A stretch of 64,000 nt of DNA. It comes from Neoroseomonas terrae (GTDB taxonomy: Bacteria > Pseudomonadota > Alphaproteobacteria > Acetobacterales > Acetobacteraceae). The notes below the pieces were generated by a model. It saw nothing but the letters and a program-made list of their open reading frames with translations. It did not search any database and had not been told where the DNA came from. Below are positions 35,052-60,831 of the stretch, one piece after another. The translations under genes and the position numbers were made by a program. Every line of letters begins with the position of its first letter. The stretch's first letter is position 1. The stretch spans positions 186,001 through 250,000 of the forward strand of contig NZ_JAAEDI010000003.1 in assembly GCF_018129025.1 (NCBI RefSeq), given 5' to 3'.

Positions 35052-36371
35052 TCAGGCGACCTTCCAGCCCTCCACGTCACCATCGTTCAGGCGCTCGAAA
35101 AGCCTTGCCCAGCTGTCCTTCGGCGGCGCCGGCTCTGGCGTCGCAGCCGGACCCGTGACCATCTGGTCGAGCAACTGCCCGATCAGGCCCAGCGCATCCA
35201 CCTGGTCATCGTGCTTCCCTGCCGGGAAGGTCATGAGCTCCGCCTCAAATGCCTGTCGCCACGGCGCGTGCCGCGGCAGGTGAAGCCCCTCCAATGCCAT
35301 GCGGCCGCGGATTGATTGCGCCCTCACCGCCTTGTCCCCACGCGTTGGGAAAGCGTGGCGAGCCACATAGGCTTGGCGCTCGCGCATGCGCCGCTGCAAG
35401 AACGGCCCAATGCCGGCTCGGATTTGACCCGTTTCTTCGGCCCAGCCGATCGGCCGCCACCGCTTCACCAGATCACAGAACGCCTCGATCCACGCATCCG
35501 CCGCGGTCTGCCCTCGCCAGAGGTCCAGCAGCCAAAGCTGACCTGCCGGATCCATCCCCACCACCGCATGCACGGTGAAATCGCCACCGTCGGCGGTGAC
35601 GGCGTAATCCGAACCGCCATAGATCCGCAGAGTGGCCCGATCCGGCAGGACGTCGACGTGACGCAGCCACTCGGCCTGGAAATAGTCACCGGTGTCCGGC
35701 ACCGGGCGCTGCATATACAGTGCCGACCAACTGCGGGTGCTGGCCTCGGCCTTCACGCGCTGGAGTGACGCCGCGTAGCCGTAACCATCATCGCCCCACA
35801 GCATCTCGCCAGGGGCACGCCCCAGGGGATCGTCCACCTCCGCCTCGGCCGGTAGCGACACCACCCGCCACTTGTCCCCCTGCGCCTCGAGCAGCCTTCC
35901 GGACAGATCGTCCTGATGCCAGCGGGTTTGGACAACCACGATGGCTGCACCGGGCCGCAGGCGCGTGCGCAGGTCGTCCTGGAACCATTCCCACACGCGG
36001 GCCCGGCGCGCCTCGCTATCGGCTTCCTCGCGGGATTTCACCGGGTCGTCGATTAGAGCCAGGTCGGCCCGTAGGCCCGTGATGACCCCGCCGATCCCGG
36101 CGGCGCGGTATTCCCCTCCATTGCTGGTGGTCCAGAGGTCCTCCGCCTCGCGGTCCAGCCGATAGCCGAGCATCGGGCCATGGCTGCGGATGCGGCCCCG
36201 CACACGGCGGGAGAACGTCCCCGCAAGATCAGCGGTGTTGCTGGTGGCAATGACCCGACGGTCGCGGCCCTGGGCGAGGAACCAGGCGGGGAACAGGTCG
36301 GAGGTGTAGGTGCTCTTTGCCGATCCCGGCGGCATGAACACCATCAGCCGGTCATGCACGCCGTCGGCCAT
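35052..36371 (-). CDS. Terminase large subunit lacking its first 48 residues
   Basis: A 439-residue protein. Compared with the gene at 1-611, the first 48 codons are missing: the frame begins MADGVHDRLMVF exactly where the upstream DNA switches to recombinase sequence (36,370). The Walker A-like PPGSAKST, Walker B ALIDDP, VVQTRWHQDDL and the nuclease segment (SDYAVTADGGDFTVHAV) are all kept, so ATPase and nuclease cores look intact. The frame is open upstream to 36,635 but that part translates recombinase-cassette DNA backwards. No small terminase precedes it and no portal gene follows; it is probably non-functional in packaging. Confidence 0.8.
   Translation of the reverse strand: MADGVHDRLMVFMPPGSAKSTYTSDLFPAWFLAQGRDRRVIATSNTADLAGTFSRRVRGRIRSHGPMLGYRLDREAEDLWTTSNGGEYRAAGIGGVITGLRADLALIDDPVKSREEADSEARRARVWEWFQDDLRTRLRPGAAIVVVQTRWHQDDLSGRLLEAQGDKWRVVSLPAEAEVDDPLGRAPGEMLWGDDGYGYAASLQRVKAEASTRSWSALYMQRPVPDTGDYFQAEWLRHVDVLPDRATLRIYGGSDYAVTADGGDFTVHAVVGMDPAGQLWLLDLWRGQTAADAWIEAFCDLVKRWRPIGWAEETGQIRAGIGPFLQRRMRERQAYVARHAFPTRGDKAVRAQSIRGRMALEGLHLPRHAPWRQAFEAELMTFPAGKHDDQVDALGLIGQLLDQMVTGPAATPEPAPPKDSWARLFERLNDGDVEGWKVA
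35902..36370. repeat. Direct repeat copy 2 (large-terminase segment)
   Basis: Matches 1-469 without gaps and with only scattered substitutions, in the same orientation. Recombination between the copies would delete or circularise about 35.9 kb. Confidence 0.9.
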
Positions 36372-36453
36372 CCGGCTCCGCGTCGAGGGACTGGCCGGTT
36401 TGGTCCGCGACCTCACGGCCATCGCGCACAGCGCGCTGGCGGCGGCGGCATGA
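36370..36453 (+). pseudogene. 3' remnant of a large serine recombinase gene
   Basis: Reads IRLRVEGLAGLVRDLTAIAH and stops at 36,453, matching the last codons of the recombinase at 7,613-8,965 (IRLRVEGLAGLVRDLGAIAP). The rest of the gene is gone; the join with terminase sequence is at 36,370. The downstream HTH gene is still coupled to its stop codon. Confidence 0.85.
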
Positions 36454-36869
36454 GCACCGCGACCAGCATCACAGTCCGGGTACCACTGGCGATTCGTCAC
36501 CGGCCGGGACGCAAGACCATCGTCATGCCAGCGAAGGCGGAGCCGGCCGCGGTTGCCACAAGGGCCGATCCGGCGCTGGTGAAGGCGCTGGCTCGCGCGC
36601 ACCGATACCAACGCCAACTCGACCAAGGTCGCCATGGATCGTTGACCGAACTGGCGGCGGCCGAGAAAGTCGACCGGTCCTTCCTTGGGAAGCTGCTCAG
36701 CCTGACTCTCCTGGCGCCGGATCTGGTCGAGGCGATCCTGGACGGCCGCTGTGAGGCCGGCCTGACGACGCTACTCCGGCCTCTACCGGTACTCTGGCCG
36801 GACCAGAGCAGAGCGTTGGCCTCCGAGAGCAGGCCGGCTTCGTCTCAGCCGAAGAATTCCGAAGGGTAA
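36450..36869 (+). CDS. Recombinase-linked small HTH protein (copy 3)
   Basis: A 139-residue paralogue of the gene at 8,962. It has the same basic N-terminus (TSITVRVPLAIRHRPGRK), the same ParB/KorB-like HTH (RHGSLTELAAAEKVDRSFLG, then LSLTLLAPDLVEAIL) and a similar PLPVLWPDQ end. The ATG overlaps the stop of the recombinase remnant (ATGA). It is intact although its partner recombinase has been destroyed. Confidence 0.82.
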   Translation: MSTATSITVRVPLAIRHRPGRKTIVMPAKAEPAAVATRADPALVKALARAHRYQRQLDQGRHGSLTELAAAEKVDRSFLGKLLSLTLLAPDLVEAILDGRCEAGLTTLLRPLPVLWPDQSRALASESRPASSQPKNSEG

Positions 36870-37214: not shown

Positions 37215-37289
<75 letters not shown>

Positions 37290-40858: not shown

Positions 40859-41220
40859 TGTCCGCGCCATCCGAGATCCGCCTGAAGCGCGCCGAGCAGG
40901 TGATCGAGGTTGCCTGGCCGGACGGCGCGCGCTTTCGCCTGCCGGCCGAATATCTGCGCGTGGAAAGCCCCAGCGCCGAGGTGCAGGGCCACGCGCCCGA
41001 CCAGAAGGTGATCGTCGCCGGGCGCCGGCATGTCGGCATCATGCGCGTGGAGCCCGTGGGGAACTACGCCGTGCGGATCGTCTTCGACGATCTGCACGAC
41101 ACCGGCATCTACTCCTGGGCGTATCTGCGGACGCTGGGGGCGGAGCAGGAGACGCGCTGGGCGACGTACTTGGCCGAACTCGGCGCGCGGGGACTGTCAC
41201 GGGATCCGCCGCGGCGCTGA
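40858..41220 (+). CDS. DUF971 protein
   Basis: A 120-residue protein with DUF971 features (IEVAWPDGARFRLPAEYLRV, VGNYAVRIVFDDLHDTGIYS). This fold is known from iron-sulfur and oxygenase contexts such as gamma-butyrobetaine hydroxylase N-termini, but stand-alone forms have no settled role. Last gene of the YbbN-LON-Trm112-DUF971 run; its ATG overlaps the Trm112 stop. Confidence 0.9.
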   Translation: MSAPSEIRLKRAEQVIEVAWPDGARFRLPAEYLRVESPSAEVQGHAPDQKVIVAGRRHVGIMRVEPVGNYAVRIVFDDLHDTGIYSWAYLRTLGAEQETRWATYLAELGARGLSRDPPRR

Positions 41221-41342: not shown

Positions 41343-41569
41343 TCGGAGGGGCGCCGCCCCTCCGAACCACCCCGCCAGGGGGTTAGACCCCCTGGACCGC
41401 AATCTGTTGGTATCGAGCGCTGCGGGCTGCGCTGGCCCCGTCAGGCACGCTTCGTGCGCAAGGGCGGGTTCCGGCACCACTTCTGACAGCGGCGCACCGC
41501 ACCAGGTTGAGGTTTGCAAAAGCCTTTCGGCCTTTGCTGGGGTGGCTTGGAGGGGCAACGCCCCTCCAA
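41343..41569 (+). repeat. Five-hairpin mosaic element, copy A (227 bp)
   Basis: Hairpins lie in order at 41,343-41,365, 41,375-41,395, 41,445-41,457, 41,516-41,537 and 41,547-41,569. The same element occurs inverted at 59,552-59,777. The outer hairpins are identical between copies. The second stem differs by paired changes (CCAGGGGGT with ACCCCCTGG here; CCAGGATGC with GCATCCTGG in copy B). It fills most of the 391-base gap between the DUF971 and BKACE genes. Short frames across it read differently in each direction and are not taken as genes. Confidence 0.85.
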
Positions 41570-41611: not shown

Positions 41612-42538
41612 TCAGAACCCGACCAGATCGCCGCCCTTGAGCTTCAGCATCTCGCGCGCCTCGGCCGGCGTCGCGATTTCCAACGACAGCTCCTCAAGGA
41701 TGCGGCGGATCTTCGCGACCTGCTGGGCGTTGGATGTCGCGGCCTGGCCCTTGCCGATCCACAGGCTGTCCTCGAGCCCGACGCGGACATTGCCGCCCAT
41801 CATCGCCGCCATCGTCACGAAGGGCATCTGGTGTCGCCCCGCCGCCAGCACGGACCAGACGTAGTCCTTGCCGAACAGGCGGTCCGCCGTCTCGCGCATG
41901 AACATCAGGTTGCGATGCTCGGCGCCGATGCCGCCCAGGATGCCGAAGATCGTCTGGGTGAACAGCGGCGGCTCGACCACCTTGCGGTCCAGCATGTGCG
42001 CGAGGTTGTAGAGATGGCCGATGTCGTAACATTCGAACTCGAACCGCGTGCCGTGCCCCTTGCCCAGCCGCTCGACGATCTGCTCGATGTCCTGGAAGGT
42101 GTTGCGGAAGATGTAGTTGGTCGTGCCTTCGAGGTAGGGCCTCTCCCACTCGTGCTTGAAGTGCTTCACCCGCGCGGCGGAGGGCGCGATGTTGAAGTTC
42201 ATCGAGCCCATGTTGAGGCTGCACATCTCCGGCTTCGCCTGCAGCGGCGCGGCCAGCCGCTCATCCACCGTCATGCCCAGCCCGCCGCCGGTGGTGATGT
42301 TGATGACCGCATCGGTGGACTGCTTGATGACCGGCAGGAACTGCATGAACACCGCCGGGTCGGGCGTCGGGCGGCCGTCCTTCGGGTCGCGCGCGTGCAG
42401 GTGGATGATGGAGGCGCCGGCCTCGGCCGCTGCAATGGACTGCTCCGCGATCTCCTGCGGCGTGATGGGCAGATGGTCCGACATCGACGGTGTGTGAATC
42501 GCACCCGTGACGGCGCAGGTGATGATGACCTTGGACAT
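41612..42538 (-). CDS. BKACE family beta-keto acid cleavage enzyme (DUF849)
   Basis: A 308-residue TIM-barrel enzyme of the 3-keto-5-aminohexanoate cleavage (BKACE) family, which condenses a beta-keto acid with acetyl-CoA and releases acetoacetate and a CoA ester. Zinc-site HLHARDPKDGRP lies near residues 46-57, MGSMNFN near 110, and GGNVRVGLEDSLW near the end. GGAGG precedes ATG 42,538. The substrate differs widely within the family and is not predictable here. Confidence 0.92.
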   Translation of the reverse strand: MSKVIITCAVTGAIHTPSMSDHLPITPQEIAEQSIAAAEAGASIIHLHARDPKDGRPTPDPAVFMQFLPVIKQSTDAVINITTGGGLGMTVDERLAAPLQAKPEMCSLNMGSMNFNIAPSAARVKHFKHEWERPYLEGTTNYIFRNTFQDIEQIVERLGKGHGTRFEFECYDIGHLYNLAHMLDRKVVEPPLFTQTIFGILGGIGAEHRNLMFMRETADRLFGKDYVWSVLAAGRHQMPFVTMAAMMGGNVRVGLEDSLWIGKGQAATSNAQQVAKIRRILEELSLEIATPAEAREMLKLKGGDLVGF

Positions 42539-57570: not shown

Positions 57571-58356
57571 TTACCCGCCGGCCTGCGTCCTTCCACGCCG
57601 CTGCAACCACGCCACAACCAGCAGCAGCAACACTGACAGGCCCACCAGCATCGCCGCTGCCGCCGTCGTCGTCAGGCTGATCGAATCGTTCAGCCCGGCG
57701 AACATCTGCCGCGGCAGCGTCCGCTGCGCAGGGCCGGCGATGAACAGCGCGATGACCACCTCATCCAGCGACGTCGCGAAGGCAAAGATCGCACCCGCCG
57801 CTACGCCCGGCGCGATCTGCGGCAGACAGACGCGGAAGAAGGCGCTGACCGGCCCCGCGCCACAGGCCGACGCAGCGCGTAGTTGGACCGGATCGAACCC
57901 CTCCAGCGCCGCGAGGACCGTGACCACCACGAAGGGCACGCCGAGGGTCGTGTGCGCGATGATCAGGCCGCTGTAGCTCGCGACCAGCCCGATCGGCCCG
58001 AAGGTGAGCAGCAGCGCGACGGCCACCACGATGACCGGCACCACCATCGGCGCCAGCACGATGCCCATGGCCACCGCGCGCGCCGCCCCGCGCATCCGCC
58101 ACAGCCCGAAGGCCGCCGGCGTGCCGAGCAGCGTCGCGAGCCCCGCCGACGCGCTGCCGATCAGCAGCGAGTTCCACAACGCCGGTAGCCAGAAGTCGGA
58201 GCCGAAGAAATCCTGGTACCAGCGCAGCGACAGGCCGGGCAGCGGATAGAACAGGAAGGATCCGGCTGAGAAGGACAGCGGCAGGATCGCGACGATCGGC
58301 GCCACCAGGAACAGCGCCACCAGCACCGCCGCGACCCAGGCCAACCCGCGCGCCAT
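57571..58356 (-). CDS. Polyamine-type ABC transporter permease 2 (PotC-like)
   Basis: A 261-residue inner-membrane permease with about six helices. The ATPase-contact EAA loop reads EGFDPVQLRAASACGAGPVS. FPLPGLSLRWYQDFF-type openings (here YPLPGLSLRWYQDFFGSDFW) are usual in PotC relatives. The ATG overlaps the stop of permease 1 (ATGA). Confidence 0.93.
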   Translation of the reverse strand: MARGLAWVAAVLVALFLVAPIVAILPLSFSAGSFLFYPLPGLSLRWYQDFFGSDFWLPALWNSLLIGSASAGLATLLGTPAAFGLWRMRGAARAVAMGIVLAPMVVPVIVVAVALLLTFGPIGLVASYSGLIIAHTTLGVPFVVVTVLAALEGFDPVQLRAASACGAGPVSAFFRVCLPQIAPGVAAGAIFAFATSLDEVVIALFIAGPAQRTLPRQMFAGLNDSISLTTTAAAAMLVGLSVLLLLVVAWLQRRGRTQAGG

Positions 58357-59522
58357 CACGCTGCCCCCGGCCGGCGGAAGCCCGCGAGCTTCCCGTACAG
58401 CGCGACGCACAGCCCGACCGCCGCCAGCAGCAGGACCGACAGCGCCGCCGCCAGCCCCCAGTTGACGCTGCGCGTCGCGTAGAAGCCGACGAACCACGCC
58501 AGCATCTGGTCGTTCGGACCGCCGAGCAGCGCCGGCGTGACGTAGAACCCCAGCGCCTGGATGAACACCAGCAGGCACCCCGCGCCGATTCCCGGCAGGC
58601 ACAGCGGCAGCGTCACCCGCAGGAAGACGCGCCACGGCGCCGCACCCAGGGACGCCGCCGCCCGCGGCAGCCGCGGATCGAGCGCGCGGAAGGCCGCCAC
58701 CAGCGGCAGCACCATGAAGGGCAGCAGGATGTGCACCATCGCCAGCACCACGGCGAAGCGGTTCATCATCAGCGGCAATGGCCCGATGCCGAGCCCGCCC
58801 AGCGCCGCATTCACTACGCCTTCCCGCTGCAGCAGCACCATCCACGCCGCCGTCCGCACGATCAGCGAGATCCAGAAGGGCAGCATCACCGCCGCCAGCA
58901 GGACCGTCGCCGGCCAGCCCTTCGACGTCGCGATCAGCCAGGCGAGCGGCCAGCCGAGCAGCAGGCAGCAGGCGGTCACCATCAGGCTGATCCACAGGCT
59001 GCGCAGCAGCACGAGGCGGAACACCGCCTGGTCTTCCGGCACCGCGCGCAGGCTGCCCGCCGCATCCTGCCGCAGGTCGAGCGCCGTCAGCACATGGAAG
59101 GCCGACAAGGGCCCGCCGGCGCGACGGATGGCGCCCCAGGTCTCGGCCTCGCCCCATTCCTCGCTGATGGCGAGGACGGCGTCGCGCGCGGTGCCCTCGA
59201 ACGGTGCTTCCGCGCGCCGCGCGGTCATGGGCAGCAGGCCGCGGAAGCCGGGGCGGTCGGCATTGAGCCGCGCGGCGGCGCGGGGGATCGCGCTGGCGTC
59301 GCGTTGCCGCGCCTCGCGGAGATCGGCGACGAGCGCGGCGAAGGCGGGTTCGCCAGGCGCCACGCGCCCGTCCCAGCCGGCCAGCGCAGCGATGGTGCGG
59401 GGAAGGACCGGCGCGACCTCCCCATCCGTCACGCCACGCCAGAGGAAGGCACCGATCGGGGCGACGAAGGTGAGGAGGAGGAAGAGGAGAAGGGGAGCGG
59501 TCAGCAGGGCGGGACGGTTCAT
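58356..59522 (-). CDS. Polyamine-type ABC transporter permease 1 (PotB-like)
   Basis: A 388-residue permease. The first helix is MNRPALLTAPLLLFLLLTFV; a periplasmic insert of about 150 residues follows, then the remaining helices with the EAA loop FRALDPRLPRAAASLGAAPW. The insert makes it longer than PotB. The start at 59,522 is just inside the boundary of the hairpin element copy B; the open frame further upstream is repeat DNA. Confidence 0.92.
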   Translation of the reverse strand: MNRPALLTAPLLLFLLLTFVAPIGAFLWRGVTDGEVAPVLPRTIAALAGWDGRVAPGEPAFAALVADLREARQRDASAIPRAAARLNADRPGFRGLLPMTARRAEAPFEGTARDAVLAISEEWGEAETWGAIRRAGGPLSAFHVLTALDLRQDAAGSLRAVPEDQAVFRLVLLRSLWISLMVTACCLLLGWPLAWLIATSKGWPATVLLAAVMLPFWISLIVRTAAWMVLLQREGVVNAALGGLGIGPLPLMMNRFAVVLAMVHILLPFMVLPLVAAFRALDPRLPRAAASLGAAPWRVFLRVTLPLCLPGIGAGCLLVFIQALGFYVTPALLGGPNDQMLAWFVGFYATRSVNWGLAAALSVLLLAAVGLCVALYGKLAGFRRPGAA

Positions 59523-59551: not shown

Positions 59552-59777
59552 TTGGAGGGGCGTTGCCCCTCCAAGCCACCCCAGCAAAGGCCGAAAGGCC
59601 TTTGCAAACCTCCACTTGGCGCCGGGCGACACGGGCGGGAACGATGCCGAACCCCGCTCTCGTGCACGGAGCGCGCGTTGGGGGGACGACAAGCCCCCGG
59701 TGCCGGACGCCAACAGATTGCGGTCCAGGATGCCCAGCATCCTGGCGGGGTGGTTCGGAGGGGCGGCGCCCCTCCGA
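59552..59777 (-). repeat. Five-hairpin mosaic element, copy B (226 bp, inverted)
   Basis: Reverse-complement copy of 41,343-41,569. Outer hairpins at 59,552-59,574 and 59,755-59,777 are identical to those of copy A. Inner hairpins at 59,584-59,605 (a perfect nine-base stem) and 59,725-59,745 correspond to the fourth and second of copy A. It occupies the 265-base gap between the binding-protein stop and the permease 1 start inside one operon. Confidence 0.85.
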
Positions 59778-59787
59778 CCTTCCACCC

Positions 59788-60831
59788 TTACCGCGACACC
59801 CATGTGTTGAACCGCTGCGTCAGCCGATCGAGGTTGTCGAGCCAGAACCGGTCGCTCAGATGCAGGGCGCTCGCGATATTCTGCGGCGCCGTCGGCAGGT
59901 TTGCCAGCACGTCGGGCGGCAGGCGTTCGTTCACCCCCTTCGCCGTGACGCCGTAGGGGATCTTCGGGGGCAGCGTGGCCTGGACGGCCGGCTGGCCGAC
60001 GAATTTCAGGAACTCCAGCGCCTTCGCCCGGTTCGGGCTGCCCTTCATGATCACCCAGCTATCCAGGGTGAAGATGTTGTTGGTCCAGACGATCGCGAAG
60101 TTGCGGTTGTCGGTCTGGTTCGCCGCGGAGATGCGCCCGTTGTACGCGACGGTCATCGCCACCTCGCCGGCGGCGAGCCATTGCGGCGGCTGGGAGCCGC
60201 GTTCGAACCAGGCGATGTCGGCCTTGATGCTGTCCAGCTTGCGGAAGGCGCGGTCCACGCCCGCGGCGGTGCCCAGCACCTGATACACCTGGGCCGGCTG
60301 CACGCCATCGGCCATCAGCGCCATTTCGAGCGTCGTCTTGGGCCCCTTGCGCATGCCGCGCTTGCCGGGGAAGCGGGCGCTGTCGAAGAAGTCGGCCCAG
60401 TTCGTCGGCCCCTGCGGGGTGCGGGCGCGGTCATAGGCGATGATGAAGGAATAGAGGATCGCGCCGACGCCGTAGTCGTTCACCGCCTCCGGGATGTAGG
60501 CATCGCGGCCGCCGATCGCGGCCCAGTCCATCCGTTCGAACAGCCCCTCATCGGCGCCGATCAGCAATTCCTCGGATTCCACCTGGACCACGTCCCAGGT
60601 GTTGGCGCCGGAGGCGATGCGGGAGCGCAGGACGCCGATGCCGCCATCCCAGGTCTCCTCGAGCAGACGGGTGTTGGTCTGCTGCTGGAAGGGGCGGAAG
60701 TAGACCTCCCGCTGCGCATCCTGATAGGCGCCGCCCCAGGAGACGACGGTGAGGTCGCGACCCTGCGCGCGGGCAATAGTTGGCAGGGCGCTGGCGGCCA
60801 GCGCCCCTGTAAGGACGGTACGGCGATGCAT
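59788..60831 (-). CDS. Polyamine-type ABC transporter substrate-binding protein (PotD-like)
   Basis: A 347-residue periplasmic binding protein. Tat-like signal (MHRRTVLTGALAASALPTIA, then RAQ). LTVVSWGGAYQDAQREVYF and NTWDVVQVESEELLIGADEG are typical of the spermidine/putrescine binding family. It lies 36 bases after the ATPase gene. The true ligand may be a polyamine or another small cation or organic acid. Confidence 0.92.
   Translation of the reverse strand: MHRRTVLTGALAASALPTIARAQGRDLTVVSWGGAYQDAQREVYFRPFQQQTNTRLLEETWDGGIGVLRSRIASGANTWDVVQVESEELLIGADEGLFERMDWAAIGGRDAYIPEAVNDYGVGAILYSFIIAYDRARTPQGPTNWADFFDSARFPGKRGMRKGPKTTLEMALMADGVQPAQVYQVLGTAAGVDRAFRKLDSIKADIAWFERGSQPPQWLAAGEVAMTVAYNGRISAANQTDNRNFAIVWTNNIFTLDSWVIMKGSPNRAKALEFLKFVGQPAVQATLPPKIPYGVTAKGVNERLPPDVLANLPTAPQNIASALHLSDRFWLDNLDRLTQRFNTWVSR

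Follow-up and report, generated by a model that had tools for sequence, protein, structure and literature searches.

BIMEs consist of alternating palindromic units at the 3' ends of operons and genes, and those of E. coli bind gyrase and other proteins and stabilise mRNA. The repeat described here, from the genome of Neoroseomonas terrae (Acetobacteraceae; the source genome below), has only this general plan in common with them, and its unit sequence differs. According to the passages of PMC3116915 that deal with them, REPINs are REP doublets that form hairpins, show compensatory changes and possibly fold into a clover. Compared with that account, the present element is REPIN-like in being an inverted doublet with conserved ends, a less conserved spacer and many intergenic copies, and in its compensatory hairpin changes and possible clover fold. 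However, its unit is about 60 nt long and contains two hairpins, it resides in a genus without RAYT/Y1, and the GTAG tag is absent. The REPs with a GTAG or CGTC tag, as the relevant sections of PMC3733652 present them, occur as dimers and as heterodimers of different stems and lie between convergent or unidirectional genes near stop codons; in the same sections the CGTC REPs are likewise described as having no dedicated transposase and are stated to be missing in Acetobacteraceae. The new element also forms dimers and heterodimers with different stems near stop codons, is high in copy number and intergenic, and sits at gene 3' ends and rarely between divergent genes, but its consensus has no unpaired GTAG or CGTC tag. 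In description it further resembles RIME (Rhizobium-specific intergenic mosaic elements, mentioned in PMC2573895), which are intergenic palindromic repeats restricted to a single alphaproteobacterial group and of unknown function.

Inspection of the arm consensus and of a flank profile (36 of the 41 source-genome copies, five being left out) revealed no unpaired GTAG or CGTC tag, and TGTC stands 3-4 nt outside HP1' in only part of the source-genome copies. The RAYT transposase (Y1_Tnp, PF01797) was found in none of 23 genomes of the genus (the source genome and 22 congeners), whereas the same search was positive in five of 14 control genomes. In the family, Y1_Tnp showed no association with the repeat, being present in 7 of 68 arm-bearing genomes and in 7 of the 52 that have no arm. 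The element was therefore rejected as a RAYT-mobilised REPIN and, judged by tag and transposase, falls outside the REP superfamilies that have been described. Among the titles and abstract openings of the open-access papers listed, no description of this repeat was found. It is a genuine structured repeat, of a new family and a known general kind.

Copies in the window

The window is the whole stretch of 64,000 nt that was analysed. An earlier note, made from its letters alone, had reported an element present twice, inverted, at 41,343-41,569 and 59,552-59,777, and full-length alignment in opposite orientation confirmed both (copy B is 80% identical to copy A by blastn). The parts of the two copies are listed below, where R1 is a covariance model of the right arm (33 sequences, 60 positions).

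41343..41569, plus strand: copy A, inverted dimer of a ~60-nt unit, in a convergent spacer
41343..41365, plus strand: outer hairpin HP1 of copy A, TCGGAGGGGC-GCC-GCCCCTCCGA; 98.3% of cells paired (80 copies)
41367..41373, plus strand: strand S1 of copy A (CCACCCC); its predicted pairing with 41539-41545 (GGGGTGG) would close a four-way junction
41375..41395, plus strand: hairpin HP2 of copy A (compensated stem), CCAGGGGGT-TAG-ACCCCCTGG; 66 of 80 copies have one of seven perfect stems
41399..41510, plus strand: variable spacer of copy A; spacer hairpin without support
41516..41537, plus strand: hairpin HP2' of copy A, with a single A.C mismatch where copy B has nine perfect pairs
41547..41569, plus strand: outer hairpin HP1' of copy A, TTGGAGGGGC-AAC-GCCCCTCCAA; 96.6% of cells paired
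41343..41399, minus strand: left arm of copy A, matched by R1 on the opposite strand with 57.8 bits
41510..41569, plus strand: right arm of copy A, matched by R1 with 86.0 bits
59552..59777, minus strand: copy B, after the stop codon of a solute-binding-protein gene and ahead of the start of a permease gene
59725..59745, minus strand: hairpin HP2 of copy B, CCAGGATGC-TGG-GCATCCTGG
59721..59777, plus strand: left arm of copy B, matched by R1 on the opposite strand with 51.2 bits
59552..59611, minus strand: right arm of copy B, matched by R1 with 90.6 bits

Genes were called with a home-made codon score and not with a standard gene finder. Copy A is flanked by a GBBH-like gene (ends at 41220, plus strand) and a BKACE gene (ends at 41612, minus strand). 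The neighbours of copy B, the solute-binding-protein gene (59788-60831) and the permease gene (58356-59522), are both on the minus strand, and the gene beside copy B has orthologues 81-92% identical in seven Neoroseomonas species, which puts the window in or close to that genus.

The compensated change in the inner stem (41375-41395) and the single mismatch of the stem at 41516-41537 are as the note had described them. The text between the hairpins, which it had called less conserved, has a mean identity of 68% in the spacer compared with 93% in the arms among the source-genome copies. Four of its five hairpins are supported; the fifth, in the spacer, was rejected because over 80 copies it pairs no better than the column make-up predicts. 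Its statement that it knew of no matching named family stands in so far as Rfam has no match, but as an inverted dimer built from a REP-like unit the element belongs to a known general kind. With Rfam 15, no family except tRNA reached the gathering threshold in the window, and copy A, at E up to 1, had a single match (Clostridiales-2, 18.8 bits compared with the 58.6 needed).

That tRNA gene, at 37218-37289 on the minus strand, is the sole Rfam match of the window. The window also contains a 300-nt direct repeat (1-300 and 35902-36201, 97% identity), the second copy of which sits inside an ORF at 35052-36635 on the minus strand that we take to resemble a phage terminase large subunit.

Copy number and dimer architecture

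The source genome carries at least 41 near-full copies, A and B among them. BLAST with copy A gave 40 copies covering at least 200 of the 227 positions (the best 40 of 294 candidates), and a search with copy B added one more (the best 20 of 317 candidates). The motif GGCCTTTGSYGGGGWGG occurs 70 + 66 times in this genome, 63 + 63 times in N. alba and 39 + 39 times in genome G003; it is present in 18 of 39 genomes and was not found in 16 genomes of other families or in a reversed control. R1 has at least 150 matches at E 0.01 in the source genome (all 150 scored, the best 150 of 3,625 candidates). Many more copies than two thus exist in the genome and its relatives.

Because R1 also recognises the left arms on the opposite strand, the element is an inverted dimer of one ~60-nt unit. 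Each unit consists of hairpin HP1, a C-rich strand and hairpin HP2, and the two units flank a fast-evolving spacer. Among the 150 matches listed, 13 pairs of arms span 228-378 bp and the next one spans 2,114 bp. An extra right-hand tail, with at least 13 of 17 letters in common, is shared by 16 of the 41 source-genome copies (shuffle maxima 10-14; 200 shuffles per copy), so the true ends of the element may fall beyond 227 bp. Several congeners have AAAGGCC-type HP2 stems on both arms, whereas the left HP2 of the aligned source-genome and N. alba copies is of other types.

A second, related dimer class was seen in a convergent spacer of the source genome (L110, 14894-15170), with HP1 GGAGAGGGGC, strand CCTCTCCCCGCC and an AAAGGCC-type HP2 on both arms. 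Two N. alba copies (L096 and L099) carry an extra hairpin at the base of HP2 (CATTGACGTTGC or near it, plus its inverse), which is partly kept in L091, and similar palindromes occur in L071 and in L112; it seems that one palindrome can land within another.

Folding and covariation

As RNA, copies A and B fold with z scores of −7.85 and −7.39 relative to 200 dinucleotide shuffles, and copy B folds as DNA with −6.55; none of the 200 shuffles was as low in any case. Pairing was examined in alignment A2, which comprises 80 copies (41 from the source genome and 39 from N. alba; the partial copy L138 and L032 and L053 of G003 were left out). Four of five covariation measures were above all 500 shuffles: pairing is kept in 96.8% of the 3,726 cells (shuffles, 92.5%), two-sided change affects 12 pairs (7.3), 145 cells are double changes (39.3) and the covariation score is 0.118 (0.045). 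The fifth, the number of further pair types, was not raised (35 compared with 35.8; 418 of 500 shuffles as high). Slid control structures pair in only 38-62%, and both these controls and the shuffles leave the relatedness among copies in place.

Individual pairs illustrate the changes. The second pair of HP1 is CG in 64 copies and UA in nine, and the first pair of HP2' is GC in 57 and CG in 21. The HP2 stem GGGGGT occurs 22 times in the source genome and never in N. alba, whereas GGGGCT occurs nine times in N. alba and never in the source genome. Six of the seven S1 pairs are kept at 94.7% and the seventh at 87.3%, a complementarity that also follows from the arms being inverted repeats.

A wider set of 61 arm matches in 38 loci agrees: 98.0% of cells are paired (81.1% shuffled), 18 of 19 pairs show two-sided change and 159 cells are double changes (35.4 shuffled), with none of 500 shuffles reaching any of these values. 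With one row per genus (30 genera; eight of the 38 loci left out), 79 double-change cells were counted, together with 8 G.T, 1 A.C and 3 other cells, mismatches being under-represented in this set because the alignment was fitted to the model and the best matches were taken. Stem covariation is thus present across the 80 copies and in the arm of 30 genera, and selection on pairing is supported. The two results that the note had named as refuting it, a lack of further copies and a lack of stem covariation, did not come about.

The RNA minimum-energy folds join parts of the two arms as a rod, part of which RNAalifold retains, whereas the DNA fold consists of local hairpins. For HP2, 97% of cells pair in the hairpin and 49% in the rod; for the second pair of HP1, the counts are 73 of 74 and 4 of 56. 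The third pair of HP1 suits both readings (75 of 76 in the hairpin and 61 of 62 in the rod). The long arm-against-arm rod was rejected for HP2 and the second HP1 pair, where the copies favour local hairpins.

Placement relative to genes

None of the 41 source-genome copies lies inside a gene; 28 have convergent flanking genes, 12 have tandem ones (5 and 7 per orientation) and 1 has divergent ones. The baseline of 115 adjacent gene pairs in 144 kb of the source genome, which includes 80 kb chosen for holding copies, contains 21 convergent and 22 divergent pairs, and against it the convergent enrichment is significant (Fisher p 1.9e-8). The bias toward gene 3' ends recurs in 20 further source-genome arms (9 convergent, 11 tandem, 0 divergent; L187 left out) and in other genera, where 28 of 30 loci (L160 and L166 left out) gave 14 convergent, 10 tandem, 0 divergent and 4 not classifiable; of the 24 classifiable loci, 22 have the right-hand gene with its stop codon toward HP1'. 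It is weaker in N. alba (8 convergent, 8 tandem, 3 divergent and 1 undetermined among the 20 of 40 copies used; p 0.03). At two loci of two congeners (L037 and L056), an arm lies just upstream of a gene with a start that reads like pheT, and thus perhaps between pheS and pheT.

Distribution and turnover

At E 1e-4, R1 has matches in 68 of the 120 Acetobacteraceae genomes (GTDB family) that were covered, corresponding to 60 of 102 genera. Across 142 genomes sampled from the whole class, it recognises the source genome and three of the 141 others, with a single match in each of these three, and has none in one other family member of that sample (G078). Plasmid and phage collections gave no blastn match at E 1e-5, and a plasmid or phage origin was rejected on this ground.

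The spacer of copy B was compared at 12 loci, two of which were not syntenic, with L081 left out. The arm is there in six of nine syntenic relatives (MAG bin.6, N. alba, N. lacus, N. oryzicola, N. soli and N. marina) and was not found in N. eburnea, Roseomonas sp. HF4 and Roseomonas sp. KE0001. For three source-genome sites in four congeners, 3 of 11 sequences contain an arm (L112, L120 and L121), the twelfth sequence being the orthologous N. alba copy L085; at site 2, genome G020 has a bare convergent spacer of about 30 bp. Only two of the 41 source-genome copies, one by a single flank, share their place with the first 20 N. alba copies. As the compared sites vary and few places are shared, no single site needs the element. 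The source-genome and N. alba copies mostly cluster by species (5 label changes compared with 26.9 when shuffled). In two spacers where the source genome has the element, a different palindromic family was observed in G003, G015 and G020 (L113-L116), with AAAGAAGG(G)AGGGGG.. and GGGGGAG..CTCCCCC-type hairpins.

Discussion

Stems are far better conserved than the parts between them. Among the source-genome copies, mean identity is 95.0% in stems, 68.1% in the spacer and 66.6% in the 3-nt HP1 loop; the corresponding values for N. alba are 85.2%, 67.8% and 65.2%, and where the two species share a place (two cases), stem identity is 88-89% and spacer identity 59-67%. Since homogenisation is not expected to skip a 3-nt loop between conserved strands, selection on the stems is the simpler explanation, and this contrast suggests selection in place. 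Singletons are about equal in stems (54 of 7,393 letters) and spacer (49 of 8,704), which could be read against constraint in place; because spacer columns are near saturation, the argument rests on pairwise identity and the loops. It has to be weighed against a mutational artefact, in which template switching or conversion within a hairpin perfects palindromes and stems look compensated without selection. Whole stems are indeed swapped: HP2 has 110 double-change cells compared with 3 G.T and 6 A.C intermediates, a tree with weak support (two starred inner branches of 77) implies at least 30 changes of HP2 type, and the orthologous site L025/L085 reads CCAGGGGG..CCCCCTGG in the source genome and CCAGGATGC..GCATCCTGG in N. 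alba. However, such a process would preserve complementarity and not the letters of the stem, which are conserved among the source-genome copies while the loops are not, and it leaves the 3'-end placement and the spread through the family unexplained; we consider it quite improbable. A purely selfish miniature mobile element, with hairpins kept for recognition by a putative transposase and a 3'-end bias reflecting where insertions do no harm, would agree with the differences in presence between species at the same place and with the clustering by species. In the sections of PMC3733652 and PMC3116915 concerned, moreover, REPs of other bacteria are placed likewise and REPINs show the same compensatory changes. 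Against it stand the absence of Y1_Tnp from the genus and its lack of association in the family, the conservation of stems in place while loops vary, and the result that no target-site duplication of 3 to 7 nt exceeded shuffled pairings in 81 copies. By the spans of arm pairs, no autonomous partner was obvious among the 150 matches listed. This explanation therefore seems to us rather unlikely.

The earlier note had proposed selection on structure, as RNA or as folded DNA. The pairing part of that proposal has held, but a structured RNA gene or cis-regulatory RNA transcribed from one strand has become highly improbable, despite the strong folding and covariation. One-strand RNA is expected to tolerate G.U far better than A.C. 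In the unfitted alignment A2, single-sided changes are not commoner as G.T (30 cells, 20 distinct) than as A.C (52 cells, 28 distinct), which makes one-strand RNA unlikely. When HP1 and HP2 of both arms are oriented toward the element from the nearer gene, the counts are 25 G.T and 33 A.C, and a 4:1 preference for G.T is rejected (p 7e-10). The per-genus set does favour G.T over A.C, by 8 to 1, but it was fitted to and picked by a model that itself prefers G.U. In addition, tandem copies of the source genome occur in both orientations, no promoter-like site was found at copies A and B, and there is no Rfam match. The constraint is thus without strand preference, so that it acts on folded DNA or on RNA used from both sides. 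An intrinsic terminator (a hairpin and then a T run) was rejected at copies A and B, where no T run was found.

We suggest, with moderate confidence, that the element is a RAYT-less, family-wide REP/REPIN-like dimer that acts at transcript ends on both strands. Its two inverted ~60-nt units would fold into a clover (four-way junction) flanked on either side by an outer hairpin. Because of the 3'-end and convergent placement, either gene would read stop codon, HP1, CCCC and HP2, and the element might form a two-way transcript boundary where it sits, by blocking 3' exonucleases or as a stop or buffer for converging transcription. It may have been spread by a putative enzyme that recognises the hairpins. 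The element probably has a function where it sits. In an unlikely variant, REP-like dimers that are independent of RAYT and typical of one family would make up a third class, in which a DNA clover or four-way junction, usable from either strand and selected in place between convergent genes, would be bound or moved by a putative structure-specific protein; whole stems would then be swappable because this protein recognises the shape of the fold rather than its sequence.

Few repeats are as common in bacterial chromosomes as those of the REP type, and it has long been debated whether they serve the cell or only themselves. The element adds a high-copy class in a family that PMC3733652, in the section concerned, describes as lacking CGTC REPs. 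With its unit in 60 of 102 sampled genera and with copies in a genus without RAYT, the structure is separated from the only known mover of REPs. Its function also becomes accessible to tests in laboratory strains, in which individual copies that lie between convergent genes could be removed.
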